Shown here: positions 5,821 through 62,588 of the stretch, in pieces | Layout: every line of letters starts with the position of its first letter | Position numbering within the stretch: position 1 is the stretch's first letter | DNA from: Sialis fuliginosa | Taxonomy: Eukaryota; Arthropoda; Insecta; Megaloptera; Sialidae | Direction: 5' to 3' | Assembly: GCA_961205875.1 (NCBI GenBank) | Contig: OY540814.1 | Coordinates: forward strand, 6,120,993-6,184,992 | Length of the DNA: 64,000 nucleotides | The notes under the pieces: generated by a model | Told to the model about the DNA's origin: nothing | Database searches by the model: none | The model's input: only the letters and a program-made list of their open reading frames with translations | Made by a program: the position numbers and the translations under genes

Positions 5821-5849
5821 AGGGCAGTAGCATATGTAGAAAAAAAATT

Positions 5850-6650
5850 ACATATTAATCTCGTAAAAAATAGCTAATTTTGTAGTTTTCGGATTTTTTT
5901 TAAATTTCTATGTAATGGCTAGAAAAATCTAAATAACAAAACGAACCAAATTACTCTTTTAAGATAATTATTAAGAGCACTAGTAGTTCCCCACATAACT
6001 TTTTTTTGCTTCGAAAAGAGCTGACTTTCGTATTTTCTTGTTTTTTGGTGATATTAAACTTAATTTTTTTAATAGAAAATGTGTATCAATCAAGCTGATT
6101 CCACCTCCAGTGGTTGAGGGGTGATTTCTACCCCTAAAAAGCGTATTTAGCCGAAACAAAAAAACACGTATTTAATATTTTTCGGTGTTTAATAAGTATG
6201 TTAAGTTTCATTCAAATCGGTGAGTTACAGTTGGGTAGTGTTACTTGTCAGTACTATCATAACTTACACATAATTACAGTTCTGTTAAACCCGAAAGCCA
6301 CAGAAAATTTTGAAAAATAAATAAAATGAGAATTTTATTAATGAAATTAAAAAGCCTCTTTCTACAACAAAAATAATTTAAACTCAGAATTGAGCAAGAT
6401 CAGTTGAAACTAGACCTTCTATGCTTTCAAATGACATCAATCATCATTATAATTGCTTAATAGAACGCGTACTATGGCGAATTAAAAAAAATGAAAATTG
6501 ACGAAATGTTCATATCTATGATCATTAATTTTTTCTAATTACAGTTTCTGTTAACTAATACGTATAATTAAATAACAACTGCATCAAAATTAAAAATGGT
6601 GCGACATCAATTTTTTTTTTATTTTGATTATAAATGGAATGACTCCGTTC
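5850..6650 (+). repeat. Diverged single arm of the 178-bp foldback family
   Basis: Matches 51110-51740, the right arm of the 4-kb foldback, in the same orientation. Shared segments: CCCCACATAACTTTTTTTTG, ATCAATCAAGCTGATT, CATAACTTACACATAATTA, AGAACGCGT(A/G)CTAT(G/A)GCGA and TATAAATGGAATGACTC. No 178-bp array is present here. It is an old solo arm. Confidence 0.75.
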
Positions 6651-7074
6651 TAATATAGGTAACATAAAATTATGAAATTTTTTTCTGGCAACCTTCAGAA
6701 TTTCATTCTTTACATCTTTCTGAATGTAAATCATTAACTCTTATGAATCCTAACGGTTTTTGGCGCCTGCACTATTAATTTCATATATAAATAATATGAT
6801 TTTGTTTATGTTTGATTTGATTAAATATATTAGAAAATTATGGTCTTGATAAAGGTAAATTAGAATTGCATTTTAATTAAAAATAAATATTTTGGAAATA
6901 CTGCGGATCCCATGGAATGATCGATTTAAAGTCTGCAGGATTGCAAACTTTAGTCATAGCGAATCATACCGAACCCAAAAAGTACATACTCATAAGATAT
7001 GCAACTTTAAATGCAAAGTCGTATAAAAATTACTTATAGTTCAATTTTTGTTTAAATTATTTGTAATAAAATAT

Positions 7075-19120: not shown

Positions 19121-19851
19121 ATAGCAGCGTCGATTTATCTGAAAAAAGGCTGTTTTGTTTTGTGAAATCTCTTAGTAGTAAAATTTTTTTGACTAAATCG
19201 CTTCCTTTTGGGCTCAAGAATATGTGAATAAGTTTTCCGGATTTTGAGTGCTCCGGAACAGGGTCAAAAATACATTGGTTTGTAACAAATTAAGGTTTTT
19301 TGACGATAGTTCAGCTAATATTTTAAATAATTTTTTTTTTAAATATGAGATGATGCGTTATAAAAATACAAATAAAATGAATTTGACCTTCAAAAATTTT
19401 TGAAATTTGTTTATTGTGGCTGTTTAAACAAAAACTATGAGATGAGATGTTGCGCATCAGTTTGTACCGTTAAAAACTATCTTTTGAAGATATTTTTAAA
19501 AAATTAAGAGTTTTATTTAGTTTTTTATCTTAATTTTAAAAATACTGTGTTTTCCACCATTTTTTTACGGGTGAACGGAATCACCTTTTGACTTCTACCC
19601 AGTGTCATTTTACTTGTATTTTCATAGCGCATCATCTTAAATTTTTTAAATTTTTTTATTTAAAATATTAGCCGAACTATCATCAGAAAACCTTAATTTG
19701 TTACAAACAAATACATTTTTGACCCTGTTTCGGAGCACTAAAAATCCGGAAAACGTACGCACATATTCTTTAGCCCAAAAGGAAGCGATTTAGTCAAAAA
19801 AATTTCACTACTAAGAGATTTCACAAAAAAATATAATTCGACGCTGCTATT
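19121..19851. repeat. 730-bp foldback
   Basis: Ends ATAGCAGCGTCG and CGACGCTGCTAT are inverted. Further matches include TGAAATCTCTTAGTAGT and AAATCGCTTCCTTTTGGGCT with their complements near 19762-19830. Flanks read TAT/ATA, so a TA target is possible but not proven. Confidence 0.83.
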
Positions 19852-20754
19852 ACATTATTTTTCAATACTTAAATAGTTATTTTTTTATTTATTTTTTTTT
19901 GGTACACATATTTAGTTTCAAAATAAAGATAAAATTTTTTTAGTTTTTATTTATAATTTCTTTTTACAACTTTATAGTAAAATATTTTTTTTCATAAAAA
20001 TAAAATTCTCTGAAGTTGGTCATACATAAAAGAATGAATGATTGAATACATATTTAAAATACACTGAAAAATGATAAGTTCTGCATTTCTATTCAACAAC
20101 TGAATTATTAACAGTCACTCAGTTGCCAATGGGGTCAATCAATATGAAGTGGTCATCACTGATTGCTCGATTATTCTTAAAAAAAATTGATTTTTTAACA
20201 TGTTAGTAGTTAAAAGAAACCATTATTTTAATTTTTTTGTTTTTTGTTTTCGCGTGGCAGCCATATTTGTTCTACAGGTCACAGTATTTTTTAGTTTAAA
20301 GGGTTTGCGGAAACTAAAATATCTCAGGATCTACCAAACCTTTTATCATAGGACTAAAAGCAAATTGTTCAAAGAAAAACAGACTACAAGAATAGTTGTA
20401 GACATTTTCACCTAAATGTAATCCTAAAGGGTGTAAAATTAAATTTTAAAATTAAAAAGCTGTAATTCTTAGCTGTTTTTTTGAAAAAATCCCATTTTCA
20501 AGGAGATGTTTTTGTAAGGAGAAAAGTTAATAAGTCAAATTATTTTTTACAAATAGATGGGTACTAGTTGTATTCACACACCAAAGTTCAACTTTGAGAT
20601 TTGCCCCCCTTTTTTTTCAAAAAATTCTCAAAATTTGAAAATTCGAGAAAATGGCACTTTTCAAAGCTAAATATCTCTGGTGGGGGACCAGATAAAAATC
20701 TGAAATTTTAGCCCATAATAGTACTACATAATGATATTATCATACATTAATCTA

Positions 20755-23025: not shown

Positions 23026-26000
23026 CTGTTGGAAAGAAATTATGTATTAACTGAGTACAATACCGAGATCCCAGTCAAAACTTACCTTTTTGTTTCATCT
23101 TTCTTCTTCTTATTTTCCTTATTAATTTTACAATATTTCTGATATTCATCATATGCCTTTTGAACTGACTGTATATCCGATCCAAAATCTTCTAAAAACT
23201 CTAGCTTCCGTTGCGAGAATAAAACTTTCTGTTCAACATCAACTCCCTCTTTCTCTAGGAACTGATCGATGATACCCAGTATTTCTTTCTCATCTATTAC
23301 CTCTTTTTGTAAATACATATCGATTAATTGTAGATGTAACCGTTGATTTGTTGGATCTTTTGTTATAGCTGTTTGTAGAATTTCCATTGCTTTTTCGGTG
23401 TCTTTGCATACCTAAAATAATTAAAACAGATAATTAGATAAATAAAAAATGGGTGTGACTGTGTCTGGATGCACAGTCGAGGGAATGACGTAAATACATA
23501 GGGGGTTAAGTAAAACTCACCTTGGGTTGCATAAAGCAAAATTAACCACAATTAATTAATCAGTTCTTTTAAAATCAATATTACGTCAATTCTGATATAT
23601 TTTATAATGTAAAAAATCAGCATATTTAGTGAATTACAAATTGAGATTAAGTTTAGATTTAACATTAATCATGGTTTGAAAATAACTGATTAACTAATTG
23701 TGGTTAATTTTGCTTTATGCAACCCGAGGTCAGACTAGTATTGTATAATATAGTTATTTCTTAAAATTTGTACGAATATAAAAACAATTAATTAATAGTT
23801 ACAAACAAAATTTACTTTTTATTTTTTTATTCAATTTAAAAAACTAATCAAAAAATTAAAAACGTTAGGTTGTAGAAAATATATTCTAATATACTGTTAT
23901 TTTTTTCAATTCAATTAATTAATATTTACAAACGCAATCGTGGACATACAAAATTTAATTTTTTGTTGTTTTTTTATATTAAATTTAATTTAAATAAACA
24001 TTGTTATTTTTGTTTAATTTAAATTAATTAATACTTACAAGCAAAATCATGGAAATTCAAAAAAATTTTGGTCCATATAAAAAACTTTAGTAAAAAAATT
24101 AAAAGCGTTACTCCCTAGAGAATTTATTGTAATATACGGTTATTTTTGTTTCAATTCAATTAATTAATATTTACAAGCAAAATCGTGGAAATGCAAAATT
24201 TAATTTTTTTTTTCAAGTATGAAGTTTTTTACTCATTAAAACTGGTTGTATCACGTAGATCTAATCGAGATCTATAATTTGAAACCAACACCTACTGTAG
24301 CTGCTCTGAGTGTCAAGATACACTGATTATAAATTTACGCTAGTGTAGCAAACTGATCTCTGCGCGTTACATCAAGTTTCTAAAATGCCCAGTATCTGGC
24401 CTGAAATACTAGACGATATTCACGTCAAAAACAAGAATAAATTTAGATACCATACCTTTAGGCAAAACCTTGCATACTTAATGGCCATATTATTAGAAAT
24501 CATCTTATTCTTTGAGTTATTGATATACGATTCATACAACTGGGCACATTTCTCATGATCATTTCGTCTCCTCTCCAAGTTAATACGTCTGTAAGCGACT
24601 TGCAGAAGATTTGGCACTGACTTCTCCAAATTAGCAAGGATTTCTGAAGCCCGTGTATGATTACCGGCCGCCTCTTCGTGGATAGCCCAAGCTAGGTGAA
24701 GACCAGGTTTACCGACATGATGAACCGTGCAAGCTCTCTCGTATACCTCATGTGCTCGAGTATAGTCTTTGATGTTCTCCAAATATCTCACGTACCGTAA
24801 CCAGAATTCTTCATACAAAGCGCAAGCGATCAGACAACGTTCAAATAATACTATTATACGTTGTCTGTCACCTTGTTCTATTTCAAAATCCAGGTACTCC
24901 TTCCAGTTTTTCAACTGGCAACGTTCCAGTGGTTTGACGTGGAAATACGGCCGTTTTATCTGAAAATTTAAAATCATTAAATATGATTTAAAGTAGACTA
25001 TTTTATATTAAGATCATTACCCCTTCTTCGTAATTCCATCTAGCAGTAACAGCTGTTACAGTAGCCTTGTGATATTTTCGACGAGCAGCAACTATACGTT
25101 CTTTAATTGCTTTTGTTTCTTCATCGGACTTCTGAAACAAAGAACAGTTTATAAATAGCATGGCTTGGCACACCTCTTAAACTTTTGAAACTATCAGTTT
25201 TTGAAGGATGTTTAAAAAATTGTAATTTTTTTTCTTATCTTTACTCTCATTTCTTGTAAAAAATTGATATTAATAGTAATAATAGTGGTTTTATAAGTTC
25301 ATTTAAAAACATAATAAATAAATGACATAACCTAAGTTTCAAGTAGTATATATTCTTAAAACAATTTGTTACAAAAGAATAAATAAATACAGAACCTGAA
25401 AAACATATTCCACAAATGATAAATAATACATTTTAATTTATCATAATACGTTAGTCCTACAATTATAATTTTTCAGAATTAACATTAAACAACAAACAGA
25501 ATTAGAAAAAAACCATTCCATACCAACAATGAAACGTATGAAATTCAGAACACAGAACAATATCCAATGTTTATTACCGTTGTATATTTTCATAGAAAAA
25601 TGTATCAAACAATAAGTGACAATAACATAATTTAATATAATGCAATACATGTAGATGTATGTTTGATACAAATAAAATAAATGTGCTCCATATTTTTTAA
25701 TGCAAACTTACCAAATTTTATCTTGATTAAAGATGTAACATTATAAAACAGAACTCAAGATAAACATTAAAATAGAAAAAATATTTAAATAAACTGCAAA
25801 TTTCTTTACTTCTAGTTTTCCAATTTGGCTGACAAGCAAACATCCCAAGGTGCCACTCTCCAACATTAATGAAACTTGGTAAAATATTCTTTGGGTAAAA
25901 ATTAAGGACATGTATTTTTTTATACATACCTGTTTTTAAGTTTAGGTGGTGAAATCGAACCTTGAAAATGAGGGTAAAATTTTTAATTTGTAAATAGCTC

Positions 26001-29000
26001 GTAAACCGCTTGGAATAGTGGCTAGTGTATAATACAAAATTTGTTTGGTATTACAAGAGCTACCACACCCCTAAACTTTTTCAAAAATTATTTTTTCTTT
26101 CATAAATAAAAAATTTTTTCAAAATAACGTATCTTCAAACTTCTAAGATATCGACACTTTTGTAGTCCGTCATATACTTTATACACTGTATAAAGTATAT
26201 GGCATGCCGTGCCACGCGCCAGTCAAAGCTAGTGTAACACTTTTTAAAGTAGTGTGGTTCTATTATAAGTTGTGATATTAATTTGATAATTTACAAATGT
26301 CATCAACATGGGTTTATTTTAAATTACAAAGAGTAAAAAATTTTGCAAATTCATCGATAGGGGGTGTGCAATCCTTACAGTAATGAACAATGAAATATAG
26401 TTAGTGATTTCAAGTATTGAAAAAATGGTTTTAAAACTATTCATGCCAAGGCAATGATAATATTCATTAAAGGTTGTACATGTGTTTTTTTTTTTTAGTT
26501 TTACTGGTGATAATATGGTAAGAATAAATCTCTATACTTCAGTTTACGAGTAGATTTAAAAAATACAGCTATGCTAATTAGGATAGTTTAAGAATGTTGT
26601 GATTATTAAGAATTTAAGATACACGACATTTTTATTAAAAATAAATCTAAATAGTTTTCTTTAAATTTTTGCAATTAAATTTTTTCAATACTTAAAATCG
26701 CTATACATTTCATTATTCATTACTTTAAGGGTTGCATACTCCCTATCGATGAATTGGCAAAATTTTTACTCTGTAGTTTAAAATAAATCCATATTGATGA
26801 TATTTGTGAATTATCAAATTAATATCACAACTTATAATAGAACCACACTAGAACTACTTTGAAAAGTGTTCTACTAGCTTTGACTGGCGCGCGGCACGGC
26901 ACGCCATATACTTTATACAGTGTATAAAGTATATGGTGGACAACAAAAGTGCCGATATCTCCAAAGTTTGTAGATACGTTATTTTGAAATTTTATATCAT
27001 TATATTCAGAATACTACACTCTATTGATTTATGAAAGAAAAAATAATAATTTTTGAAAAAAGTTGAGGGGTGTCCATTATACCCCCCAAATAAAATTATG
27101 GGGGGTACCACATTTATGTTATTTTATAGCACCTAAACTTAAAAACGGGCACATATAAAAAAATACTTGTCCTTAATTTTTACCCAAAGAATATATTTAC
27201 CAAGTTTCATTAAAATCGGAGAGTGACACCTGGGGATGTTTGCTTGTGAGTTTGCTGTTAATTTATTACATTTTGCAACCTGCAACGTGTAGCTATGATG
27301 TAAAAATAAGTATATATGGATAAATTGAACTGTTTATACCTTTAAGACAGAAAATTATAACCAATCGATATTAAACTAAGTAAATATGAAGACTGTAATG
27401 ATCTCATTCAGAAAATGTTAACTTTTAAGGGGGTTACTAAAGAAATTTAATATGTAATACTCATTTTATCAAATTTCATACAAAAAAAATATAACAGGAC
27501 AAGAGTAGAACACACTTCCAAGCCTGCTTGGAGTGTGCAATAAATACAATTTAAACAATATAATCAAACTTACAATTGCATCGTCTTCAACATCTTCTTC
27601 TCCGGGAGGAGCATCTGAATCTGGTGCTTTTTCTGCATTTTCACTTTTTATTGCTTGTTTCACTTCTTTTCTTATAAGTAAAAATTCATCTACACTAAGT
27701 ACTTTATTAGGTGGATGTGCAGCGATATGTTCTTGGAAGCTATAAAAAAAATTATGTAAAGTACAAAGCAATAGACCTCGCTTTTATGTGAAATACATAC
27801 TTGTCAAAGTGGGAAGTGTAACCCTGCGTCGGTGTTGCCAAAAGCCGATCGTAGATCGCAGTCACATTCTGTAAACGTTTTCCTTCACCTTCCCACTTAA
27901 TGTATGTGTCCCAAAGCCTGTCCGAACGGAACTCTAATCCACACGCCAACAGAGCTCGCTCGAATTGCTCACGGATATGCGTTTCATTATCAGAATACGA
28001 ACTCTTTGTATAATTGAGGAAATGAAGCCACAGATCGACGGACAGAGGGATTGCCTTCAAACCTCGTTCGAACACCTTCCCACCCGCCAAGAAATTCAAA
28101 TTAGTTACATGTTCTAGACGTGCTTTACATATTTTGGTTCCATATGCAAAGCACAAATTAACAACATGCCGTTTTGAAACAATGCACTTTAATTTTTTAA
28201 TTGATTTGCATTGAAACAAAACTTAATGTCAATTAGTAAATCAAAGTCAAGTACAGTTAGCTGTAATATTAATTATAAATCACTGTTGAATGACTTTGAT
28301 CTACATACTTAAATATACTATTATTGTAAATACGTCAATTTTATATTTCATTAAAAATATATAAAAGAAACCTACGCTCACGTACGAGACACACTAACTC
28401 TTACATGGGACTGTAAGCATGAGACGTGTCCCGCGCAGTCGCCCTTTTCTTCTATGCTAACCGCAAGATATAGTTATATTATATCAATATAACATTATAT
28501 AACATGTTACAAGTATCAAATTCACACTATTACATTATTATATATACTATTGTGTATCACAACATTATCCCTAAATACAATACATTAGCTATATATATAT
28601 ATTTATATAAATATTCATTAATATATAATAAAATATGGCACACTCGACGGCTGCAATGTCTGTGACGCATCGAACGCTGTAGGGAAAAGAACCAGTTGAG
28701 TTTGAGATCGCGCATCCAACTCGTATTTACTAGAATTCAGTCAATTTGAACAATATATCTCAATACACTATAATAGTTTTAAAATATATTCAAATTAACC
28801 AAATCTAGAAAAAAATGAGCATATTATACTAATTTATTTATTGCACAATCACATCCAATAGAATCAAACTTACCTCTTCGCATTTTTTCTTGTTCCCCTT
28901 ACGTTTTTCATAGTCCGCATACTTGCGCCAATAACCATAACAGTATGGGTAATGAGACAAGAACGCATCGTACGCTTCACGTGCAGCTTCTATTTCATTC

Positions 29001-32000
29001 TGTAAACAAAATAAATAAAATTTATACTGGCATAAATATATAAGAGATGTTTGTATGTGGGTTTGTTATAGGTAATCTCAAAAACTACTGCTAGCAGGTT
29101 AATAAACAATCAAATCTCTATATATACATATAAATAAAAACAAACTTGTTTGTTTAAACGTCAAAATTTATTAAAGAAGAGGAAACCGCAAGCTTTCGAT
29201 TCACAGAATCATCGTCAGGCTATTAATAAAGATTTAAATTTGAGAAAGATGTCGTTATCTCAATAAAATTCATGTGACTGAATTATTGAGATAACGACAT
29301 CTTTCTCAAATTTAAATCTTTATTAATAGCCTGACGATGATTCTGTGAATCGAAAGCTTGCGGTTTCCTCTTCTTTAATAAATTTTGACGTTTAAACAAA
29401 CAAGTTTGTTTTTATTTATATTTAACGTCACTACTATTATATTATTATATTATATACATATATATAGATTCGGGAATTACTAAACCAATTTCAATGCGGT
29501 TTTCACCAATAGTTAGATAATTAATATAATATAATAATATAATAAAAAAATCTTTATCAAGTCGTGTTTTGTTTCCATGATATCGCAGCAAACAGCTGTC
29601 ATTTATATAAAAATCACAGAATAAAATAAAAAACATAGTAACCATGGAATAAAGAATTCTATAATTTACGTTTTGAATATTTTATTTAGGTCACTTTGAT
29701 CACGTCTCTTTCAAATATTTTATTGAACTGGATGATTTCTGACACATGTAACAATTAAATATTTTGAAATATCTGTATTGATTGAAAAGTGAAATATGTA
29801 TAAAGAAAAATTTCTGGTGTTTCCTGGGAGTTTGAAAATATAATTTTACACGATTTTCTCAGTAACTACTGAACGGATTTATTTCGCTTTTCGCTAATGG
29901 ATATTTTGTGTAAATTTCATGAAGTCGGAAAAAAAAATACAATTCGCAGTGAACCGTGTGTTATGGGCATGTTGGGTGTGCATGTTGGGTGGGCATGTTG
30001 AATATTTTAGGTCACTATGATTTTATAGATATTTACCCGGGTAACACCGGGTAAAATGCGTTAGTAATAAATAAAAGAACATAAAACACTTACCACTTGA
30101 TCAACATACTGCAACAAATACGTCCAGCCTGTAAAATCTGTCGGGTCATCATTCACCGCTTTCCAATATTTGTCAAGTTCAGGTAGCTTGTGTGATGTTG
30201 AATCTTTATCTTTATCTTTATCCTTATCTTTGTCCTTTTCTTTCGATGATGCTTTGTCCTTTTCTTCAGTCTCAGGTACAGCTTCATCGTCGACCGACAG
30301 TGCTTGACGTTTGGCAGCGACTGCATCGGTTTCCGATGTCGGGCTGCCGGGATCATATTCACTGGATTCTAGCTTACGTTTAACGCCATCTTTCTTCACA
30401 GATGGTAGTTCATCCTCTGACACAACCTTTAATGATAAATTGGAACAAAAATAAATTTTTTTATTACCATAAGTTAAAAGAAACATATACACTTTATTTT
30501 AAGAAGAAACCCAAGATAAATTAATAGAACAAAGGAGTATTTTTAATTCAAAATTAATAATGATTCTTTAATATCCGGTATTATAAATGAGTTAGCAAAA
30601 TTTGCTAGCTAGCAAGCATTTTCAAATGAGGTTTCTAGCCTATCTGATAGTTCTCCTTTAATTTTATGATGTATTTGACTATTTTCGTGCATGCGTGGTA
30701 TGTAAACACCAACAGAATTAAAACAGTGGTGATATTATGAAAATTATTTTGTACGGCCAGAGTCGTCAACTATGCTACAATAAGTTGAAATATCACTGCT
30801 CTAAATTTCATAGCTAATCCATAGATACAGAATTAATACCCCATTTGAAAGTGCTTGCTAGCTAGTAATACCAGACATAAATGTTTATCTTTTTTATTGC
30901 ATCAAAATTTTAAACTTATCATGCTCTATAGTCCGGTGAATTTAGTAACTGACCCAAAAATTTTTGGGACATTTTTTCCTTTGTGGCTCGTTTGAAAGGG
31001 GCTTCAACGGAGACCTTAACCCTGAATTCACGCACTGCCCAAATTGCCCCTTCCACCACCATCTTCATGTTTTCAATATCTCATAACTCGCGTTCTAAAT
31101 ATCCCACAGCAATGAAACCACTCGTCAGACTTTAATCTTTAATTAAGTTTATGTCAAATTAAACTCTCCGATATCCTGGAAAAAGTTATTAGCGTCCAAA
31201 GTGGGAAAAACTTTCCCAAAAGTCCTTTCGCCCGCTTTCTCCGTGCGTAGCTCTTTTCCAGTGCAGCTGAAACCCCCTTCGACAGTTTACTATTTGAAGT
31301 AGACTCAATTTCCAGTATTTTGAAAAAAAAAATCATCCCGATTAGTTGATTTTTCGCCCGCCAATTCTAATACTCGCATGGCGCGCTCTTGCGCGTTCGC
31401 GCTGTATTTCTCGCTTTTGCGACTAATAAAACAATAATGAATTAATAACATCCACATATTTGTTTATACTACGTTTAGGACACGCGTTTTACTTAAGTTT
31501 TAAGGAATTATAGATGCCTTTTATAGGTATTTAGGGTAAAAAGGTCAACTCTAGAAATTTCTAGGTAAGTTTTTTTTAAATTTTACTCAACATTTTGATA
31601 AGAAAGTGTTTAATCTTAAAGTATGCAACAATTTGAATGGTACTTTCATTGTAAGAAAGCCTAAGACCCCATAATTAGTTTGTAGCGACATAACACACAA
31701 AAACAATCACACGGGACAGGCACTATGGAAAATTCCCAAAATACGAGCAGCTCTCTTCAAACAAACAGTGGAAACTTCCAAGAAGGAGAAAGAACCACTA
31801 TATAAGAGTTGCTACTGAAACATTCAGTGATTGTCAACTATAGTCATTACTATCATTGTTGTTATTTGTAATAGTTAATATATGTATCAGTCAATTGTTG
31901 TTAAATAAAAACTACAAGTTAGGAGCATTTTCGTCATTATTGTTAACCCAACAATGACCGAAAATTCATCAAACCTACAAGTTTAAGTTATATGATAATC

Positions 32001-35000
32001 TTCTAAATTAATAAAATAATAAAAATTTTCTGAATGCAATTTACAGGATACAGGTTGCTTGGACCTGATTTAGGTCTTCTGATGTAATATCTGGTAATGT
32101 GTACCAACATAAATATGTGGACAGATACTGGTTGTAAGCCGTGTCCTTTCATCATATTCAAAGTTTACACTGTCACAAAAAATAAGAAAACATTTACAAA
32201 TATCATTACGAATAGCCAGTGGCAAACCAAGATTTTTTTTCGATGAGCGGGGGGTAAATTTTCTTTGTAATTATATATAATTTTCTTGTATATGTATCTA
32301 TCTTAATTTTCAAATTAAATAATGTATAATGATTAAATCAGAACTATATTTATATGGCTTCAGTGTTCTATAATCATTTTTTAAATAATTTTTATTATGT
32401 ACAATTTAAACAAAATTTAAAAAAATTAAAATTATGCATATTTCCAAAATCATTTATCCGATAAGTACCAATTTTAGTCTTCGTTAAGACGAATTGCTAC
32501 TTTTTAGAGAAGGTACCGTGAATAAAATAAACTACTACAGACAGACAGACACACGCACAACCGTCATGCGGAAGACAACTTTTCTTTGTTTTGAAAGTAG
32601 TGCTAAAAGAACATGACTTTATCTCGGACACGATTTTTGGACCCTATGTACTTTCATTTCTTTTGAAACATGGAAGTAAATTCGGTCATTTTTGATATAT
32701 TATTAAAAAATAAGTATTTATAATGTTTTTAGGATTTATTTCATTATCAAATAATGTTTATGGACGTTATCTAACATTTTAGCCCTGTACCTAAAAGTAA
32801 TAAATGGACCTGAAAGTTTTTATTTTTATTTAATTTTTATTTTTCTGCAATATTTTAATTTCTGCAATATAGAGGGTAATATTTCGCATCTATGTAAAAC
32901 TATTTTTCAATCTATGAATACATAATTTAAGATTTAACACTTTCTTATCTAAATGTTGAGAAAAATTTAAAAAAATTTACCTAGAAATTTCTAGAGTTGA
33001 CCTTTTTTACCCTAAATACCTATAAAATGCATCTATAATACCTTAAAATTTAAGTAAAACGCGTGTCCTAAACGTAGTATAAACAAATATGTGGATGTTA
33101 TTAATTCATTATTGTTTTATTAGTCGCAAAAGCGAGAAATACAGCGCGAACGCGCAAGAGCGCGCCATGCGAGTTTTAGAATTGGCGGGCGAAAAATCAA
33201 CTAATCGGGATGATTTTTTTTTTCAAAATAATGGAAATTGAGTCTACTTCAAATAGTAAACTGTCGAAGGGGGTCTCAGCTGCACTGGAAAAGAGCTATG
33301 CACGGAGAAAGCGGGAGAAAGGACTTTTGGGAAAGTTTTTCCCACTTTGGACGCTAACAACTTTTTTCCAGGATATCGGAGAGTTTAATTTGACATAAAC
33401 TTAATTTAAGATTAAAGTCTGACGAGTGGTTTCATCGCTGTGGGATATTTAGAACGCGAGTTATGAGTGATTGAAAAAATAAAAACTAATCAAAGATGGC
33501 GGCGGAAGGGGCAATTTGGGCAGTGCGAAAAATCAGGGTTAAGGTCTCCGTCGAAGTCCCTTTCGAACGAACCACAAAGGAAAAAATGTACCCGAAATTT
33601 TTGGGTCACACCTATAAAATTTTGCTAAATTAACTGGACTGCTAGTATTTTATAATAAAATATATTTTTCAAAGTTGTTTATCGTTATTCACATTATAAA
33701 TGAAGCTATTTAAAAATTAGTTTGTTAAATTTAATGTATTAATTAATTTGTATGCTTTATTTTTTTGTTATTTAATGAAAATAAGAAAAATATATATATT
33801 ACTGATCAATACATTTAAAATAGAACCAATCCAATCATTTTTATTTACATTATAAAGAAAATGCACTGATAAAATTTGATTTAAAATATAATATATATTT
33901 ATTTATCAACCGCTTCATTGAATTTAATTACTTTTAAATCTGGCCGAACATAAGGATCAAATAAAAAAAAAGGATTGCCTACACACCTCTGTATCGGCTG
34001 GAAGTTCGGCCAGCTTGGGCCCAGGCAATTCATCGTCAGATACTTCCTCTGTTTCAGGAACTTTTGCCTCTTGCACCGACGGCAATTCATCCTCAGATAT
34101 AACCTCTGTATCAGTATTTGTCTCCTACAATTTGGAATATAATTTCAGTTAAAATTGAAACGTGCATTTTTACAATTATTAAAAGAAACACGAATAAATC
34201 AGATGGCCCTTGCGGAACTTCTACATCGTAGCAATCAGAGTTTCTCTTTAAACAACGTCAAAGAGAAACCAGTATGCAAAATCATCATGGATGTTAGTAT
34301 ATTATAAATAGTAAAATAAATCAAACCCAGTCTCCAGATGAAAAAGATTTAACATGCAAAAAGCTTAGTAAAAGCAGTTACACACATAACCCAATTAATA
34401 TAGAAAAAAAGGCTGTTTGGACAACATTAAATCTGAGAGTTTTCGACCTTGGCAAACTGCCACTTGCATTGGAAAAAAGGCCGACAAAATCATATTTTGG
34501 ACAGGTAATAATGTAAAGGACATTTAATTTAAATATGGAAACTAAAAATATCCTTTAAAATTGATGAATCAGTGCAATAGTAGTCCCAATTATAGAACCT
34601 GCAAAACAATTTTTAGGACAAAAATTGTTAAATTATATTTTTATCATTGGCTCATCAAGGTTTAAAACTCTGCAATCATTGAGGACCCGAAACTACGTGA
34701 CTGATTTAAATATCAATGTAACCCAAAATTACCTATTAACTGAACTAACATACAAACGACTATTAATATACAGTTTTTATTAGATTTAATAAATATCCCA
34801 TCAAAAAAATAATATTTTTACAAATTATTAAACCAATATAACTAACCTCTTTATTTTCATTTTCCTCATTTGAAGATTTCTTTTTCGTAGGTGTAACAAC
34901 TTTGGGTTTATCTTCATCAACATCCATACTTTCTACTTCCTTATTTCCTTCATCATTTTCTGGTGAATAAGTTAGAACGATGTTATCTTCTTTAGCACTA

Positions 35001-37463: not shown

Positions 37464-39306
37464 CAGTGGCGTTGCTAGGGGGGTGACACCCGGGACGGAA
37501 ATCGAGAGTATTACCCCCCACCCCTCCAAAAAAGTCATTTATTTTTACACATTAAACAGGTATCACCTTTTGATTTTTTAACGATGTCGAGAAACGAATA
37601 CATACATAAAATGTTTCAACGCACCCTGGAGCAGAAATTATAGATTTTCATAGGTTTTGATCTGTACACTTTGAACTATCATTCCACAAAAAAAGGAAAA
37701 ACTTATTGATTTTGTGCGGGGTCATTTCTTTTGCTCTATTGCTAAAATGGGTCGTTTGAGGACATGAGTTTATTAACTAAAAGTACTTGTTTTAATATCC
37801 TGGACAACTCCTGAAAATTTGTCGGTATTTTTACGGGGCACCCTGAATATTATTATAATCGTATTATAAAATTATAAAATATTGCTCAGCAAAAAAATCT
37901 GAATGTTTTTACGTTATGTGTTCAATACATAATAAGTCACATTTCTTGTACTGTCCTTAAAAATAAATAAAGGTCTTATTTTAGGTAATTATAACAAAAT
38001 ATATATTCATTTCTGCAAGTAGAGCATGACGAAAGTATATTCTGCCATACGGATATGAGCGTTTTGCAATGTACATACACTAAAAATATTCTTATGAAAA
38101 CAAAATTAGTTTAATATACGAAAGCTGTGATTTTATGTCATTACAAACAAGTGACAGTGATTTTACCAATGTAAATTACTTCAAATTAGCACTTGTTTCA
38201 TGATTAATCGACGGGGTCATTTCTTGTAACTGGAACTTATTGCTATAGCGATCAGTGTGTATCTTATCCTTAATATATATAGGTACAGCTCAACGTCTCT
38301 CTGTCTGTCTGTCCATTAGTGCGCTTATCACTCGAGAATCACTTATTCGATTTACGTGGTTTCTTTTTTAATTCATTGATACGTTTTCTGGCCAGGTTAT
38401 AGGCTATATTTTGTTACATAGGTAACATAACAACTAAGCAGTGACGATAACAGTAAATCAAGTCGGAAAAAATTTTGCCGTCGGCGCGCTATTTTGTAAT
38501 ACGCTGCCTTAACCGTTCAATATTGAACAAAATAATGTATTAAAGAATTGTGTAGAATCAAAAGATCTACAATAAAGTCAGCGACACCACATGTCTAACT
38601 TTTATATTTAAGCCACAATAACTGCTTTTATGTTACAAAGAAAATTTAAAATATTTGGGTTTTGTTTACGTGGACTCAGTAGCTTTCGACCAATTAGTTT
38701 GGGCACCCCAGATGACGTATTTCCCTATCTCACGCCGAGCTACTGAGGCTAGCTTGTAGGTACTTTACATACCTTGGGGGTGACTTTAGTATAACCTACC
38801 AAAAATTTACATTAACCTTCGGTATAGCAACAATCAAAACGACTACATCGTGATAACGCGCGCGCCGTGTAAAAAGGGCCCAATTTTAATAGTTAAATCC
38901 GATAGTTCAAGAATCCTGTTTGGGGATGAATGTAGGGGTGTACTGGAGCCGGTTGTTAAGATTTTAGAAAATCGGCAAGCCGGTTTTTTTTATGTTTTCA
39001 TTTTCACGCGGTACCTGTTGATTTCATTTCTACTACAAACACTACATACCGTGTTTTGCTCTTTTCCTCAGTTCTGCTAATATTTTTTAAATTTGTGTTC
39101 TAAAAATTTAAGAATAAAAAAAGAGCTTTAAAAGTGCATTTAAATTTTTTTCGGTATGTGTAGCTCAGAGGGTGTTGAAGATAGACCTCACCTTTCCGTA
39201 TAATTTTTTACTTACAATGAGTTAAGGAATCAGCTCTTAAAATATCTGTATCCCAAACCAGACCAGCCTGTATATTATATCATATGTGTACTATTAGTTA
39301 CTTATA
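37464..39306. other. Gene-free stretch with transposon debris
   Basis: 37465-37570 starts CAGTGGCGTTGCTAGGGGGG, a hAT-like end without its partner. 38265-38400 (CGTCTCTCTGTCTGTCTGTC, ACTCGAGAATCACTTATTCG) looks like a retroposon tail. The rest has no coding frame. Confidence 0.5.
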
Positions 39307-40419
39307 TTAACCCATTAGCGCCCAAACGTCCGCTTTTTTCTCGCAACTTTTTGTCGCCTTAGTTGTTATGATAATGATCCTGAAAAAATTTGTGAAATAC
39401 ATATTCTTATGTAAAAATTATCGCTCTCACAGATTCCGTGGTCGAAAGTTTGCTAAAGTAATCCGGAAATTAGTTATAACCAAATTAATGAAAAAAAACA
39501 TGTTTTTTTCGCCTTTTTTTCTCAGAAGTACTGTTTTTTCACATGGGAAGAGCATTGGACGGACCTTAAAAACAATAAATATTGCGTCCATGGATCCTTA
39601 GCTTCAAATATTGGGCATAGTCAAATTGAAAAACCAAGATGGCATCCTCCAAAATGGCAACCGAAGGTCAAATTGCTTTCAAAATCTTATAGAATTTTTT
39701 ACTCGAAAACGATCAACTTTTTTGAAAATGTTTAAAGAACAAAACATGCTTACAATTAACCAAGAAACACGCATGAATATTTTCAGAATTTTTTGACTTA
39801 TTTTTTTAATTTTTTGACGTGGCAATTTTTTGAAAAAATTCAAAATTCTCGAAAAATTCTGAAAAAATTCATGCGTGTTTCTTGGCTAATTGTAAGGCTT
39901 TTTCATTCTTTACAATTTTTTTTGAAAATTGTTCGTTTTCGAGTAAAAAATTTCTAAAGGTTATAATGCGTTTATCATATAAAAATACCAGTGGCCTAGC
40001 GCGGGAGTGTTCCGTATGGCTAATGATTGAATTAAAATATTCTAAGTTCGTTTATCATATTATAGTCGGAGTGTCAGGGAGGCTTGGCCCGTAATAAAGA
40101 GTGTAGCGATTAAGAGTGGATAATTAGATTTAAATCTCCGCGCTAGGCCACTGGTTTTAAGGTCCGTCCAATGCTCTTCCCATGTGAAAAAACAGTACTT
40201 CTGAGAAAAAAAGGCGAAAAAAACACGTTTTTTTCATTAATTTGGTTATAACTAATTTCCGGTTTTTTTAGCAAACTTTCGACCACGGAATCTGAGAGAG
40301 TGATAATTTTTACATAAGAATATGTATTTCACAATTTTTTTCAGGATCATTATCATAACAACTATAAGGCGACAGAAAGTTGCGAGAAAAAAGCGGACGT
40401 TTGGGCGCTAATGGGTTAA
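39307..40419. mobile_element. TTAA-flanked foldback element
   Basis: The element at 39311-40415 begins CCCATTAGCGCCCAAACGTC and ends GACGTTTGGGCGCTAATGGG... in inverted form, with TTAA at 39307-39310 and 40416-40419. Arms of 250 bp or more match closely (AGTACTGTTTTTTCACATGG, GAGCATTGGACGGACC). TTAA with CCC ends fits the piggyBac superfamily. A second element (39989-40153) sits inside the right arm. Confidence 0.87.
39989..40153. mobile_element. 165-bp MITE nested in the TTAA element
   Basis: Starts CAGTGGCCTAGCGCGGGAG and ends CTCCGCGCTAGGCCACTG, with termini inverted for about 18 bp. It interrupts the right arm. The hAT-like CAGTGG start is seen, but no 8-bp duplication was found. Confidence 0.72.
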
Positions 40420-41150
40420 TTTGTGCATATTCGGTTACTATTTTCGGAAACTGCACCAGAGCATTAAAAATGCGTAAGGCGTTTTTTTTTTTATAGTGAG
40501 TCGGTTGATAAATGTTTGGTAGCACACCCCTGTATGTATGTGTTTAAAAGTTTTTATTTACTACCACTTATTTAAATTTGTTTAAAAACGGAAATATCGT
40601 TCAACTGAATTTTTTGTAGAGTATGACAATAATTGCGTCTGACGCTTCTGACTATGTTAATTTAAAATTACTAACACTACAGGATGATTTGATTTATGTC
40701 AGCTCATGTTACGTGAAATATGAAACTAGTGTCAAATTATAAAGTCATCGTCCCTAAATTGCTTACACATTTTTTATCTGTTTTGCAATTAGCTTCAACT
40801 GTTGCTTGGATTCTTAATATACTCGTAAGTCAGTAATCTTTGCTCTCGAACGTATATTGTTTTATCGGGGAAGCCATAGTTTTGTACAAATACACTAGAC
40901 TCGTTAATCCGGATATTCATTGTACAAAAATGACCGGATTATAGTGTGTCGGATTACTGAGAGTCAACATGCGACATTACCAGTAATTCCTTTAAATTTT
41001 TATAGATTATTGTATATTTTTATTACACGTTCTAACATGTAGACTAGAGCTGGGCGCGGGCCGTGAATTTTTCGGGTCACGGCCATGCATGATCGTGAGT
41101 CAAATTAAAACAACAATGCGTGACCGTGCGTGAGTACATTTTTGTTTCAT
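40420..41150. other. Gene-free stretch
   Basis: Contains a possible pogo/Tigger-like end at about 40900-40975 (TCGTTAATCCGGATATTC, GACCGGATTATAGTGTGTCG) and AGAGCTGGGCGCGGGCCGTG at 41045. Both are single fragments. Confidence 0.4.
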
Positions 41151-48100: not shown

Positions 48101-48205
48101 TGAATGCTAATGTATGTTTCTGTTTATACCTAAGAAAGACAAATAATAATCAATAAGTATTTAAAATATTTTTGCGTCTATTTATACTTTTCCTGAAAAA
48201 TACAC
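45161..48205. other. Long gene-free stretch
   Basis: Very AT-rich with no gene. 46763-46790 is a lone left end of the TACAGG..CCATTT foldback family. 47440-47530 (CAAATTTTGGGAGGGCAAAA, GTAGTCATTGCCTCCCCACT) is inverted relative to a like segment at 61507-61600. Confidence 0.5.
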
Positions 48206-48973
48206 TTAACAAGGAATCACTAAATTTTTTCAATATTTTTAGATATTTTTGAATGGCTGCATCTTCGCAAAAAATGATTGTAGAACGGTTTTAAAAAACA
48301 ATTTTAAAGGTAGAACATTCCAGTTTTCGAATCATTTGTTGAAAATTGTAATGTCCTTAAGGATAACCTCTCTTTAAAGATGAAACGCTGAAAAAAAATT
48401 TCAAAAATATATATGGGTCATTCCATATAAAATCATCAAGGTGCTGAAGTTGCACCATTTTTAATTTTGATGAAAGTTTAATCAGTTGTTATTATACTTA
48501 TTAGATAGCAGAAACTGTACTTAGAAAAATTTTAATGGCCATAGTTCGGGGGTGGTGACCGTTTTACCCTCTTAAGATATGAAGATTTCGTCGATTTTCA
48601 ACGTTTTTTCAACTCGCTATAGCACGCGTTCTAATAAAGCAATTAAAACGAGCTTAATGTCATTTGAAAGACTAAGGAATCTAGTTTCAATTGATCTAGC
48701 ACAATTTAAAGTTTAAATATTTTTTTTGTAGATAGAGGCTTTTCAAATTTATTAATAAAATTGTCATTTTTTCTATTTTTCGAAATTTATTGTGGCTCTA
48801 AGGTTAAACTGAGAAAGCTATAATTATGTGTAAGTTATGTTCATTTATAGTACTCAGTACCCACAAAAAATCAGCTTGATTGATGCACATCTTTTATTAA
48901 AAAAAATTTGTTAAATATCGCAAAAATCACGAAAACACCAAAATCAGCTGTTTTCGAAGCAAAAAAAAGTTAT

Positions 48974-50165
48974 GTGGGGGACGAGATAAAATTCTGAATT
49001 TTTTTTTACAAATGCTCTAAATAGTTATCTTTGAAGGTCTTATAGATTCGTTTTGTTATTTTCATTTTTATAGCAACCAGAATTTTTTTTTAAATTTAAA
49101 AAATACGAAAATTTCAAAAACAGTTATTTTTAAACATAATACAAAAATATGTTGGGCACGAGATAGAATTCTGAATTTTTTTTTACAAATGCTCTAAATA
49201 GTTATCTTTGAAGGCCTTAATGATTCGTTTTGTTATTTTCATTTTTATAGCAACCAGAATTTTTTTTTAAATTTAAAAAAATACGAAAACTTAAAAAACG
49301 GTTATTTTTAAACATAATACAAAAATATGTTGGGCACGAGATAGAATTCTGAATTTTTTTTTACAAATGTTCTAAATAGTTATCTTTGAAGGCCTTATAG
49401 ATTCGTTTTGTTATTTTCATTTTTATAGCAATCAGAATTTTTTTTTAATTTAAAAAAATACGAAAACTTCAAAAACGGTTATTTTTTAAACAATACAAAA
49501 ATATGTTGGGTACGAGATAGAATTCTGAATTTTTTTTTACAAATGCTCTAAATAGTTATCTTTGAAGGCCTTATAGATTCGTTTTGTTATTTTCATTTTT
49601 ATAGCAACCAGAATTTTTTTTTAAATTTAAAAAAATACGTAAACATCAAAAACGGTTATTTTTAAACATAATACAAAAATATGTTGGGCACGAGATAGAA
49701 TTCTGAATTTTTTTTTACAAATGTTCTAAATAGTTATCTTTGAAGGCCTTAATGATTCGTTTTGTTATTTTCATTTTTATAGCAACCAGAATTTTTTTTT
49801 TTAATTTAAAAAATACGAAAACTTCAAAAACAGTTATTTTTAAACATAATACAAAAATATGTTGGACACGAGATAGAATTCTGAATTTTTTTTTACAAAT
49901 GCTCTAAATAGTTATCTTTGAAGGCCTTAATGATTCGTTTTGTTATTTTCATTTTTATAGCAACCAGAATTTTTTTTTAAATTTAAAAAAATACGAAAAC
50001 TTCAAAAACGGTTTTTTTTAAACATAATACAAAAATATGTTGGGCACGAGATAGAATTCTGAATTTTTTTTTACAAATGCTCTAAATAGTTATTTTTGAA
50101 GTTCTTATAGATTCGTTTTGTTATTTTCATTTTTATAGCAATCAGAATTTTTTTTTAAATTTAAA
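48974..50165 (+). repeat. 178-bp tandem array, left arm (7 units)
   Basis: The segment TGTTGGGCACGAGATAGAAT recurs at 49151, 49329, 49505, 49683, 49861 and 50039, with a diverged first unit at 48974 (GTGGGGGACGAGATAAAATT). Spacings are 176-178 bp. Each unit also contains CTAAATAGTTATCTTTGAAG and GATTCGTTTTGTTATTTTCA. Confidence 0.95.
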
Positions 50166-50444
50166 TAAATTATTATTAATAAATTTATAAAATTAAAATA
50201 ACTTCAAAAACCAATTGACCGTTAAAAAATTAATTAAGGTATCTGTTAAAAACAACTAGATTTTATTTTTTGCTCCACATAATTTTTTTTTTTTAATTTA
50301 TTTTCGAAAATACATGATTTTAGAGTTTTTACACTTTTAAGGATTTAAAAAAAGTCTGGTGACTAGAAAAATGAAAATAACAAGAAAAAGTCAATTGGCT
50401 TTTAAAGTTAATTACTTAAAGCAATTATAAAAAAAAATTCAAAA

Positions 50445-51180
50445 TTCTATCTCGTGCCCAACATATTTTTGTATTGTTTAAAAAATAGCCATTTTTGAAG
50501 TTTTCGTATTTTTTTTAAATTTCAAAAAAATTCTGGTTGCTATAAAAATGAAAATAACAAAACGAATCATTAAGGCCTTCAAAGATAACTATTTAGAGCA
50601 TTTGTAAAAAAAAATTCTGAATTCTATCTCGTGCCCAACATATTTTTGTATTATGTTTAAAAATAACCGTTTTTGAAGTTTTCGTATTTTTAAAATAAAA
50701 AAAAAAATTCTGGTTGCTATAAAAATGAAAATAACAAAACGAATCATTAAGGCCTTCAAAGATAACTATTTAGAACATTTGTAAAAAAAAATTCAGAATT
50801 CTATCTCGTGCCCAACATATTTTTGTATTATGTTTAAAAATAACCGTTTTTTAAGTTTTCGTATTTTTTTAAATTTAAAAAAAAATTCTGGTTGCTATAA
50901 AAATGAAAATAACAAAACGAATCATTAAGACCTTCAAAGATAACTATTTAGAGCATTTGTAAAAAAAAATTCAGAATTCTATCTCGTGCCCAACATATTT
51001 TTGTATTATGTTTAAAAATAACTGTTTTTGAAATTTTCGTATTTTTTAAATTAAAAAAAAAATTCTGGTTGCTATAAAAATGAAAATAACAAAACGAATC
51101 TATAAGACCTTCAAAGATAACTATTTAGAGCATTTGTAAAAAAAAATTCAGAATTTTATCTCGTCCCCCACATAACTTTT
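50445..51180 (-). repeat. 178-bp tandem array, right arm (5 units, inverted)
   Basis: The reverse-strand unit, with ATCTCGTGCCCAACATATTT, recurs at about 50456, 50634, 50811, 50989 and, diverged, 51166. Spacings are 177-178 bp. The diverged outermost unit corresponds to the diverged first unit of the left array. Confidence 0.94.
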
Positions 51181-52587
51181 TTTTGCTTCGAAAACAGCTG
51201 ATTTTGGTGTTTTCGTGATTTTTGCGATATTTAACAAATTTTTTTTAATAAAAGATGTGCATCAATCAAGCTGATTTTTTGTGGGTACTGAGTACTATAA
51301 ATGAACATAACTTACACATAATTATAGCTTTCTCAGTTTAACCTTAGAGCCACAATAAATTTCGAAAAATAGAAAAAATGACAATTTTATTAATAAATTT
51401 GAAAAGCCTCTATCTACAAAAAAAATATTTAAACTTTAAATTGTGCTAGATCAATTGAAACTAGATTCCTTAGTCTTTCAAATGACATTAAGCTCGTTTT
51501 AATTGCTTTATTAGAACGCGTGCTATAGCGAGTTGAAAAAACGTTGAAAATCGACGAAATCTTCATATCTTAAGAGGGTAAAACGGTCACCACCCCCGAA
51601 CTATGGCCATTAAAATTTTTCTAAGTACAGTTTCTGCTATCTAATAAGTATAATAACAACTGATTAAACTTTCATCAAAATTAAAAATGGTGCAACTTCT
51701 ATATTTTAATAAATTTGATGATTATAAATGGAATGACTCATATGCAATTTTTAGGTCACTTTCAAGTGGATTTTTCAGAATGAAATTTTTTTTATCAAAA
51801 AAAGGACGTTAAAAAAAAACTTTCAGCTTTCGAAATCTGTCCTTGAATTATTTTTTTAATTATTTGATTCCTAGTTATATAGGCGCTCAAAGTGAAATAT
51901 GTGATTTTTGTTTTGATTGCAAGTAACTTGGTCAAAAATGGTCGTACAGCAATAGAAAACAAAATTGTTTGATCTACAAACATCATTTATTTGATTGGAT
52001 CAAAAAAATTTCTCAGGTCCTGTAGAGCCTCTCAAAAATGATATACAATTTTGAAAAAATTTTTTGGCGTTTCATCTTTAAAAAAAGTGGTTATCCTTAA
52101 GGATATTAAAAATTTCAACAAATGATTCGAAAACTAGAATGTTCAAGCTTTAAAACTTTTTTTTTAACTGTTCGACAACCATTTTTCGCGGAGATGCAGC
52201 CATTCAAATATACCTAAAAATATTGAAAAAATTTAGTGATCCCTTAATTTTGGAGTTTAGTGTATAAGTGCTGCTCTTATGGCTGATATTGTACCTATAA
52301 AAAGAATGCCAAGAAATACAAAAAACGTGCTGTGTATTATTGCTGTTTATCTCTAATAAAAAACTAATATCACCTTTCTATTTTAAATTAAATTAGAGTT
52401 AAATAATAAAATTTATAACTTTTGACATAGTAGGCGTGTCACTCAACATATGCACAAATATAGACTGTTTATATGTACATAAAAAAATTGATATTTCGTT
52501 TATTCAAATCGAACCTGTTATTTATCAGTCAATTCGAAATAACTATCTATCTCTTAAGGCAATTGACATTAAGCGATGACTGAAATG

Positions 52588-58904: not shown

Positions 58905-59810
58905 GATTGATTTTTTTCAGTAGTCCCCCTTTTTTGAAATTCAAATTTTTGAAAGTTGTGCAAAATTGTGCTAGTTGTTCCTAACATTGTGCCAAAACAT
59001 CAATACTCTAATATAATTTTTCACCCCCCCCCCCGCCCAGATAAAAATATATTTTTCACCAGCCTCCCTTTTGTTGAATTTCACAATTTTGAAAGTTGTG
59101 TTAAATTGTGCTAAACTTGTGCTACATTGTGCCAAAACAATTTTAAAGTTCATAAAACCTTGAATTTAGGAATTTTTATTCATGAAAATGTATACTTTAA
59201 AAATAATGTTACTTATTATACTTCTTAATAATTTTTTTTTATAATCTTCAAATGAATGTTAACAATATGGTATACTTCAATTTCATGATTATTACCGGCA
59301 ACCACCTTAATTTTAATTTGCAATTAAAGTATACATTTTTCATGAATAAAAATTCCTAAATTCAAGGTTTTATGAACTTTAAAAAGTTTATAACAAATAA
59401 AGGAGTAAAGTCATAGTTATGAGGCCTAAAGATGATTCAAAAATAATTTTTGATTTCAAAAAGCATTTTTTTCCTTTTGTAGGGCCTTTTCGCGATTTAA
59501 AAAATATCGAACCAAGATACCGACTGACCCCTTGCATTTTTAAGTTCTGTTCTGGGGGGCCGGAAAATTATATTAGAGTATTGATGTTTTGGCACAATGT
59601 TAGAAACAACTAACACAATTTTGCACAACTTTCAAAAATTTGAATTTCAAAAAAAGGGGGGCTACTGAAAAAAATCGTTTTTTGGGTTTTTATAGTGTTA
59701 TTTTTATTTTAGGGGGGAAATATTTTGGTAAAATGTAGCACAACTATAGCACAATTTGACACAACTTTCAAAAATTTGAATTTCAACAAAAGGGGGGCTA
59801 ACTTCACACA
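58905..59810. repeat. 900-bp foldback with rearranged arms
   Basis: The left side has blocks A (58905-59020, GTAGTCCCCCTTTTTTGAAA), B (59050-59140, AGCCTCCCTTTTGTTGAATT) and C (59140-59190, CCTTGAATTTAGGAATTTTT). The right side has C' (59325-59385), A' (59560-59685) and B' (59720-59805). The order is A-B-C / C'-A'-B' rather than a simple mirror. Runs of 11 C and of G interrupt it. Confidence 0.78.
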
Positions 59811-61458: not shown

Positions 61459-62588
61459 TTAAGGGGGAACACCACTCTAGTGGCCGAAAAAAATACCTAA
61501 CTGGCGCCTGATCTGGGGGGGGGGGACAGCTGGCCCCTCCACAATTTTCAGTGGGGAGGGCAATGATTACTTTTTGCCCCCCCCCCCCAAATTTTGATCC
61601 TGTTTTTTAGAGCGACATGCAATTATAAAAATCTGTTCTTGTGCACTAAAGTTCAAAATTAAGGGATCATTACATTTTTTCAATATTTTTAGGTATTTTT
61701 GAATGGCTGCATCTCCGCGAAAAAAGGTTGTAGAACAGTTTTAAAGCTTGAACATTCTAGTTTTCGAATCATTTGTTGAAAATTTTAATATCCTTAAGGA
61801 TAACCTTTAATTTTTGTAAACTGATGTTAACGCTCACAAATAAACTATAAAATGTAATCACAAGTCTAGTCAAAGACAAAAAAATTGAAAAGTCAGTATC
61901 ACTCTGTTTAATTTTTTTAACAAATAATACGATATTAAGCAAGTTAAAGAAAATTGAAGTCAATTTTGCATTTTAAGAACGTCAAGTAAGGTTAGGTGAG
62001 CTTAATTTTTTAGATTCGTACTGCCTCCTCAGAAAAAAATGGTTCCGGCACCACTGCTTAACTTTGACGATTTTTTTTGGGAGTATAATAAGTATAAGGA
62101 ATGGGACTTCTTTTAAAATATAGAAAAAAAATTGTTATTTTTTTGTACAAAATGGCGGCGAGAAAATTTAAAATCTATATAATATTGACTATAGAACTAC
62201 GTAGGGATTTTTTATTTAATCAAATTTTGTAGAAATGGTGCACTTTCGAAAAAAAATCGATTTTTTGCCAAAAAATAAAAAAAAAACCTACATACATCTA
62301 CAAATAATCTAATTGTGAAGCTACTGTCAAAATTTATAATTTCTAATTGATCCATGCAACTGTGGTGAAGTAATGTTTTCGTTAAGATTGAAAAATGTGG
62401 TTTCGAGAAAAACGCGTTTAAAGTTTTACGTAGCGTATCCTGGTGACCTTTTGTGTAACCTTAAACACCTTTTGCAATGTAATTTTTTTACTATAGAACT
62501 AAGTGCATATTGTTTTATTGATGTTAAAGCATTGTTTAAGCAACAACAAAAAAATCAAAAGCGATCCTAGAGTGGTGTTATCTCTTAA
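61459..62588. mobile_element. 1.12-kb TTAA-flanked element carrying nested fragments
   Basis: The element at 61463-62584 starts GGGGGAACACCACTCTAG and ends CTAGAGTGGTGTTATCTC, so AACACCACTCTAG is exactly inverted. TTAA lies at 61459-61462 and 62585-62588. The interior includes a G/C-run segment (61510-61600) and, at 61663-61812, the end of the 178-bp foldback family. No transposase frame. Confidence 0.8.
61663..61812 (+). repeat. Terminal fragment of the 4-kb foldback family
   Basis: GGGATCATTACATTTTTTCA, ATATTTTTAGG and TTTTTGAATGGCTGCATCTC match 48210-48370 and the complement of 52080-52243. TTAA precedes it at 61659-61662. Only about 150 bp is present. Confidence 0.82.

Follow-up and report, generated by a model that had tools for sequence, protein, structure and literature searches.

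Structure of the locus

The window analyzed here is a 64,000-nt stretch of the Sialis fuliginosa genome (assembly GCA_961205875.1, contig OY540814.1, positions 6,120,993 to 6,184,992 of the forward strand); all positions are those of the window. It contains a foldback structure with inverted arrays of a 178-bp monomer, which the initial annotation took to be a single element (48206-52247) bounded by TTAA sites. We concluded that, very probably, window 48415-51739 (the inner element) is a recently mobile, non-autonomous cut-and-paste foldback DNA transposon that jumped into an older element (approximately 48203-52262, the host element), where ATAT was duplicated (Table 1).

Table 1. Elements, repeats and genes of the window, with the basis of each assignment (TSD, target site duplication).
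Feature	Position	Strand	Basis
Inner element (mobile unit, foldback, non-autonomous), 3325 bp	48415..51739	+	both ends in 36/38 copies; four 99%-identical full-length copies
TSD ATAT, left	48411..48414	.	end mapping across copies and empty host copies
TSD ATAT, right	51740..51743	.	end mapping across copies and empty host copies
Left terminus, begins GGGTCATTCCATATAAAATCATCAAGG	48415..48449	+	left-end specific; 0-1 mismatches, 36 complete copies
Right terminus, begins GAGTCATTCCATTTATAATCATCAAAT	51696..51739	-	right-end specific; 0-1 mismatches, 36 complete copies
Left arm outer to array	48449..48979	+	first 515 nt identical to right arm
Left array, 7 units (L1-L6 full, L7 partial), 176-178 bp each	48980..50170	+	tandem-repeat and unit comparison
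Unpaired centre, ~126 nt, non-coding	50171..50295	.	matches part of ~600-nt centre of other copies
Right array, 5 units (R1-R4 full, innermost diverged and partial)	50296..51165	-	tandem-repeat and unit comparison
Right arm outer to array	51166..51695	-	self-comparison and arm comparison across copies
Host element, left part, inverted end; begins CACTTAAC after TA at 48201-48202	48203..48410	+	self-comparison and genome copies
Host element, right part (internal and inverted end); ends GTTTAGTG before TA at 52263-52264	51744..52262	+	genome copies 79-86% identical
Separate end of host-element family, without inner element	61638..61820	+	window self-comparison
Old truncated relative of inner right half, same terminus, no host sequence	5841..6651	+	main BLAST pieces 71-75% identical
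Other inverted-repeat pair	30950-31625 / 32921-33608
Other inverted-repeat pair	39306-39574 / 40152-40420
Other inverted-repeat pair	26117-26426 / 26679-26989
Other inverted-repeat pair	19155-19380 / 19605-19831
Other inverted-repeat pair	58909-59030 / 59554-59676
Other inverted-repeat pair	3920-4173 / 4734-4987
PRP39-like splicing factor gene, exons	23085-30498	-	Pfam
2-oxoacid dehydrogenase acyltransferase, exons	10657-11070	-	Pfam

Tandem arrays were detected at 48971-50170 (6.8 copies, period 178) and 50347-51174 (4.7 copies, period 177), with units spaced at 177, 178, 176, 178, 178 and 178 bp on the left and at 177, 177, 178 and 177 bp on the right. The inverted arms 48429-49489 and 50656-51716 were 98% complementary over 1061 nt, far above chance, and the seven left and five right inverted units counted initially were thereby borne out. 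The outermost units had also been described as diverged in the same way on both sides; indeed L1 matched R1, and L2 matched R2, at 99.4% each, and these units were distinct from the inner ones. With units compared in the orientation of their own arm, the inner ones paired out of order, R3 being closest to L5 (97.7%) and R4 to L3 (94.9%). Thus, the two arms match where arm meets array, and farther in the arrays have been altered unit by unit. Across 900 aligned columns (48472 to 49371), 2 mismatches separated the arms.

Outside the inner element, the inverted stretches 48211-48414 and 52041-52245 were 86% alike over 206 columns, and approximately 300 nt on the right (51744-52040) had no partner on the left. 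The inverted arms are therefore real but do not form a single continuous inverted repeat. The predicted fold of 48415-51739 contained 1330 pairs spanning more than 400 nt; the predicted length falls short of the 2 kb of double-stranded RNA first proposed.

Copies of the inner element in the genome

We searched the genome (392 Mb, 20 contigs) with the element and obtained 142 matches, for which the best 38 of 1164 candidates were scored; copy counts are lower bounds. The 37 fetched loci with matches and the window formed a set of 38 copies, 36 of which were complete (both ends present). Four 99%-identical genome copies covered only positions 48410-51747 approximately, and not the outer flanks. 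The two termini were unlike each other in the same way in all 36 complete copies (GGGTCATTCCATATAAAATC... versus GAGTCATTCCATTTATAATC..., with 0-1 mismatches each). A perfect 4-bp TSD was found in 35 of the 36 complete copies, and flanks were similar over at least 80 bp in one pair only (L019 and L030). The TSDs and the unlike flanks support a transposable carrier of the tandem array. Because the flanks of the copies were 75% AT and the TSDs were likewise AT-rich, we claim no target preference.

The close relatives (n = 8, including the window) differed from the sister copy L009 by 3-22 substitutions in approximately 3 kb. Copies L010-L012 differed from L009 by 5-6 substitutions in approximately 3.3 kb, and the window by 22; these small numbers indicate that movement was recent. 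Sites of sister copies are C6:10.178 Mb, C2:16.700 Mb, C1:38.90 Mb and C5:3.68 Mb. Separately, three copies within 0.85 Mb (L029-L031; C1 30.97, 31.12 and 31.82 Mb) had 7/6 units each and 0-1 differences per arm. Each had its own TSD and the flanks were mutually dissimilar, and local jumping is possible.

Across the 38 copies, stop-to-stop frames did not exceed 106 aa. The centre was 82-159 nt in some copies (126 in the window) and 410-450 nt in others, and was lacking in L025. In five copies (L034, L036, L041, L043 and L045) it was approximately 600 nt and combined parts of the short and the 410-450-nt forms. Scans of the window with Rfam (gathering scores) and for tRNAs were empty, and four pattern scans of viral contigs gave 0 matches.

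Palindromes and arrays are common assembly problems, and all copies and unit numbers were read from one assembly. We therefore considered that the palindrome might be an assembly artefact, or that inversion or duplication of a satellite array took place in situ, without transposition. Both are very unlikely given that the same two ends were found in 36 complete copies, 35 of them with a TSD, with a single pair of similar flanks. Further, the arms differ in unit number and order, unlike a simple read-inversion artefact.

The older host element

A search with 51740-52270 gave 66 matches (best 40 of 868 candidates scored), from which three copies were fetched (L054-L056). Among the candidates scored, the main matches outside the window were 79-86% identical. 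When the three fetched copies were aligned to the window minus the inner element and one ATAT, the insert was missing in all three. The junction sequence AAAATATGCAA... aligned in L054 and L055, and in L056 with one further difference. Copies of the host family have decayed more than the sister copies of the inner element, which fits a host older than its guest. The window itself holds one relative of each part: 61638-61820 matched the outer part only, and 5841-6651, which adjoins another repeat family at 5653-5822, matched the inner part only.

These results bear on the single element of the initial annotation, a piggyBac-like transposon in which the left arm would have lost approximately 300 bp. 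TTAA is present at both places, and the outer arms are inverted and 86% alike. However, in the genome copies the inner part stops at 48415/51739 and is flanked by TSDs of its own, and the three fetched outer copies lack the inner part; one continuous element was ruled out on these grounds. The TTAA boundary was also discarded, since TTAA lies inside the host element and the similarity runs past it: the right end and the 61638-61820 copy agreed outside TTAA at 16 of 20 positions, against 14 or fewer at the other 1892 of the 1894 window TTAA flanks, and L056 lacked TTAA at one end. A single TTAA-bounded element is accordingly extremely improbable. The nested arrangement of a guest within an older host is retained.

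The right end of the host element (GTTTAGTG) is the complement of CACTAAAC. TA is present on both sides of the element in the window, and the L054 copy spans approximately 770 bp. TA-type miniature inverted-repeat transposable elements (MITEs), which are Tc1/mariner-like, are described as having a TA target duplication, inverted ends and a length of less than 800 bp (PMC5199201). A 2-bp TA duplication fits the window but, as copies L054-L056 share flanks and longer TA-rich repeats outside the ends, is not proved. The nesting has one more level in these three copies, where the host element sits within a longer repeat whose inverted ends are CAGTGGCGTAGCG-like.

Changes in array size among copies

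Unit numbers, partial units included, ranged from 2 to 9 on the left and from 2 to 7 on the right among the 38 copies, and the 36 complete copies had 19 different configurations. On a midpoint-rooted and poorly resolved arm tree, parsimony required at least 17 left and 13 right changes of unit number. Among the relatives of L009, deletions of whole units were found in L014 (177 bp, one unit), L020 (178 and 177 bp, one per arm) and L016 (531 bp, three units), and L015 lacked 208 bp (one unit and approximately 31 bp). These size differences are most simply losses, because the window copy, which branches outside the unit-poor relatives, keeps the 7/5 plan. The outermost unit was the least variable between copies (0.024 versus 0.076 for inner units in 19 representative copies). 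For 48 of 127 units a unit of the same copy was among the nearest, versus approximately 6 expected; as ties were counted as the same copy, this is a hint only.

In a genome search with the 178-bp monomer, the best 40 of 227 candidates were scored; 150 of the 372 matches were listed, and only a part of these loci was fetched. The longest array seen, of 17 units, was on one arm of L057 (C7:24103400-24108000); the other arm had at least three units, and the other end of this copy was not obtained. The arrays read in the 38 copies and in L057 all lay within element arms, with no systematic search for arrays outside elements. No long free-standing array, and none of more than 17 units, was found among the best 40 of 227 candidates scored, which does not exclude large free arrays. 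Thus, of the suggestion that a transposable carrier spreads satellite DNA, the part that holds is that the element carries its arrays along when it moves, with up to 17 units seen; long free arrays were not among the candidates scored. Two arrays 7.7 kb apart, at C8:2598257-2599142 and C8:2605930-2606815, were listed with one and the same unit pattern.

Exchange between the arms

Gene conversion had been suggested as one way in which the arms may be kept alike. We examined private variants, 88 records on the arms of 36 copies, and compared them with random placement (5000 trials). Seven sites carried a private variant on both arms of one copy (four in L034, two in L024 and one in L036), where the null gave a mean of 0.08 and a maximum of 2. 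Six more variants were on both arms in every copy carrying them. This supports arm-to-arm conversion in some lineages of the family. Of 126 variants, 72 were singletons, and 33 shared variants were on one arm only; with so many singleton and one-arm variants, equalisation is partial.

This support does not extend to the window copy. Its arms are identical over 515 nt, and at the three sites where the right arms of close sisters differ it shares the state found in 28 of 37 right arms. The sisters, not the window, therefore probably changed at these sites, and the identical arms of the window copy look ancestral. Conversion at this locus, which we had inferred from the contrast between the arms (2 mismatches in 900 columns) and the stretches outside (approximately 14%), was dropped: complete copies share two unlike ends, and the right-arm differences of the sisters look derived.

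Origin of the array and proposed mechanism

At its end, the unit is weakly similar over 74 nt to the arm sequence that adjoins the array (48907-48979, 73 nt; E 7.5e-4). This resemblance, together with the outermost unit varying less than the others, makes a tandem duplication of an arm segment the probable start of the array. Alternatively, the element may have captured a pre-existing genomic satellite, an origin for which the likeness between unit and arm, weak and confined to the end of the unit, can be cited. We regard capture as unlikely: in the old relative at 5841-6651 the same arm runs into a unit, and, with no systematic search for arrays elsewhere, those of the 38 copies and L057 were all in element arms. 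An array grown from the element's own arm remains the preferred origin.

In the mechanism that we propose, a transposase supplied in trans would act on the fixed ends of the inner element; no frame exceeded 106 codons in the 38 copies, and the transposase would thus have to come from elsewhere. Units would be gained and lost by unequal exchange or replication slippage, and template use between the arms (conversion or gap repair) would keep the arms alike.

Another possibility is that array size changes mainly during transposition, by gap repair or aberrant excision, and not by exchange at rest, the arms serving as mutual repair templates. The nine closest complete copies, which exclude the truncated L013, are L009-L012, L014, L015, L016, L020 and the window. 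Four of them (L014, L015, L016 and L020) depart from the other five by one to three whole units at 22 or fewer substitutions from L009, and the both-arm variants fit template use between arms. However, unequal exchange after a jump predicts the same outcome, and we consider change during transposition plausible but not favoured. More speculatively, and with greater doubt, arm-to-arm template use in transposition might drive whole-unit gain and loss, each jump founding a new array length. If so, the genome would hold a datable series of satellite-like arrays of 2-17 units on one recently mobile carrier, a record of how a satellite starts.

Several observations weigh against the interpretation of the inner element as a recently mobile carrier whose arrays and arms evolve in this way. 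No transposase domain was found in a Pfam scan of 20 of the 23 window stop-to-stop frames of at least 95 aa, nor was an autonomous partner found among the copies read. The complete copy L032 lacked a matching TSD, two of the 38 copies (L013 and L021) were truncated, and the unit numbers derive from one assembly. Approximately 60 nt left of the junction aligned poorly between the empty host copies and the window, and thus the left part of the host copy in the window appears to be diverged or rearranged. The likeness of unit to arm is weak at the E value given above, and arm identity in the window copy is no evidence of conversion there. Further, the nearest relative of 79 of 127 inner units was in another copy, and homogenisation within copies is therefore only partial.

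Relation to known foldback elements

Long inverted arms make up most of the inner element, its inner tandem repeats vary in number, and a TSD is present in 35 of 36 complete copies, as in foldback elements. In structure it belongs with the Tetris/Tm1/Galileo-F foldback elements, from which its TSD sets it apart; the kind of element is already known.

Tetris of Drosophila virilis is likewise described as a non-coding foldback element with long arms composed of an outer flank and an array, in which unit number varies between arms and copies (PMC4079207). Its units are approximately 220 bp, versus 178 bp here, its TSD is 8-10 bp, versus 4 bp here, and its units occur in satellite arrays with as many as 66 copies, versus 17 units at most seen here (PMC4079207); the likeness is drawn from the published description. 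Tetris units are reported to share a 37-bp stretch with the flank, the element is related to a MITE, and its arrays can expand (PMC4079207). For Tetris, an origin of the array in an arm segment was proposed from the 37-bp stretch (PMC4079207), and the likeness of the last 74 nt of our unit to the arm suggests the same here. Tm1, a Mutator/foldback element of root-knot nematodes, also has unlike short end motifs and 1-9 tandem units per arm that vary by end and copy; it differs in its approximately 14-bp units, 9-bp TSD and reported Phantom-like transposase (PMC3169594). In Galileo subfamily F of Drosophila mojavensis, some arms carry tandem repeats of approximately 210 bp with independent arm counts, and copying of one arm onto the other was proposed for Galileo (PMC3573991). 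In contrast to the inner element, Galileo F is assigned to the P superfamily, with 7-bp duplications and two or three units described (PMC3573991). The miDNA4 and Xstir MITE satellites of Xenopus are also non-autonomous DNA transposons with a tandem array of variable length; miDNA4 is a Tc1/mariner element, and in the passages available from these sources the array is not described as mirrored in long arms (PMC12628747, PMC9659126).

Superfamily assignments were judged on the TSD. The 4-bp TSD in 35 of 36 copies disagrees with the 8-10 bp described for Tetris, and hence with membership of Tetris or the Mutator superfamily (PMC4079207), with the 9 bp of Tm1 (PMC3169594) and with the 7 bp described for Galileo and the P superfamily (PMC3573991). 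A piggyBac or other TTAA element was excluded, as TTAA occurred in 1 of 35 TSDs and the TTAA ends first read lie inside the host. For Sola2 the 4-bp length fits, but the AWWT form, a rule taken from PMC3627910, occurred in 1 of 35 TSDs.

A published description of the inner-element family was not recognised in the literature searched, judged mostly from titles. No match was returned by a text search on insect MITE satellites with TTAA, and 11-letter pieces of both ends gave no transposon paper by title among the matches listed. The origin of satellite arrays, and their seeding by transposons, are hard to settle from old, worn copies. Here, exact TSDs and near-identical sisters with 2-17 units make array growth, array loss and arm equalisation countable copy by copy and testable between individuals.

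Other features of the window

At least six other inverted-repeat pairs, 88-96% alike, were found in the 64 kb (Table 1), and foldback-shaped elements look common in this genome. A weak relative of the arm-array junction (E 5.3e-8) was found at 20572-20709 inside another repeat. Direct comparison of this segment with the 5.3-7.3 kb stretch gave no match; it is perhaps a distant family sharing a GGGGGAC.AGATAAAA-like motif.

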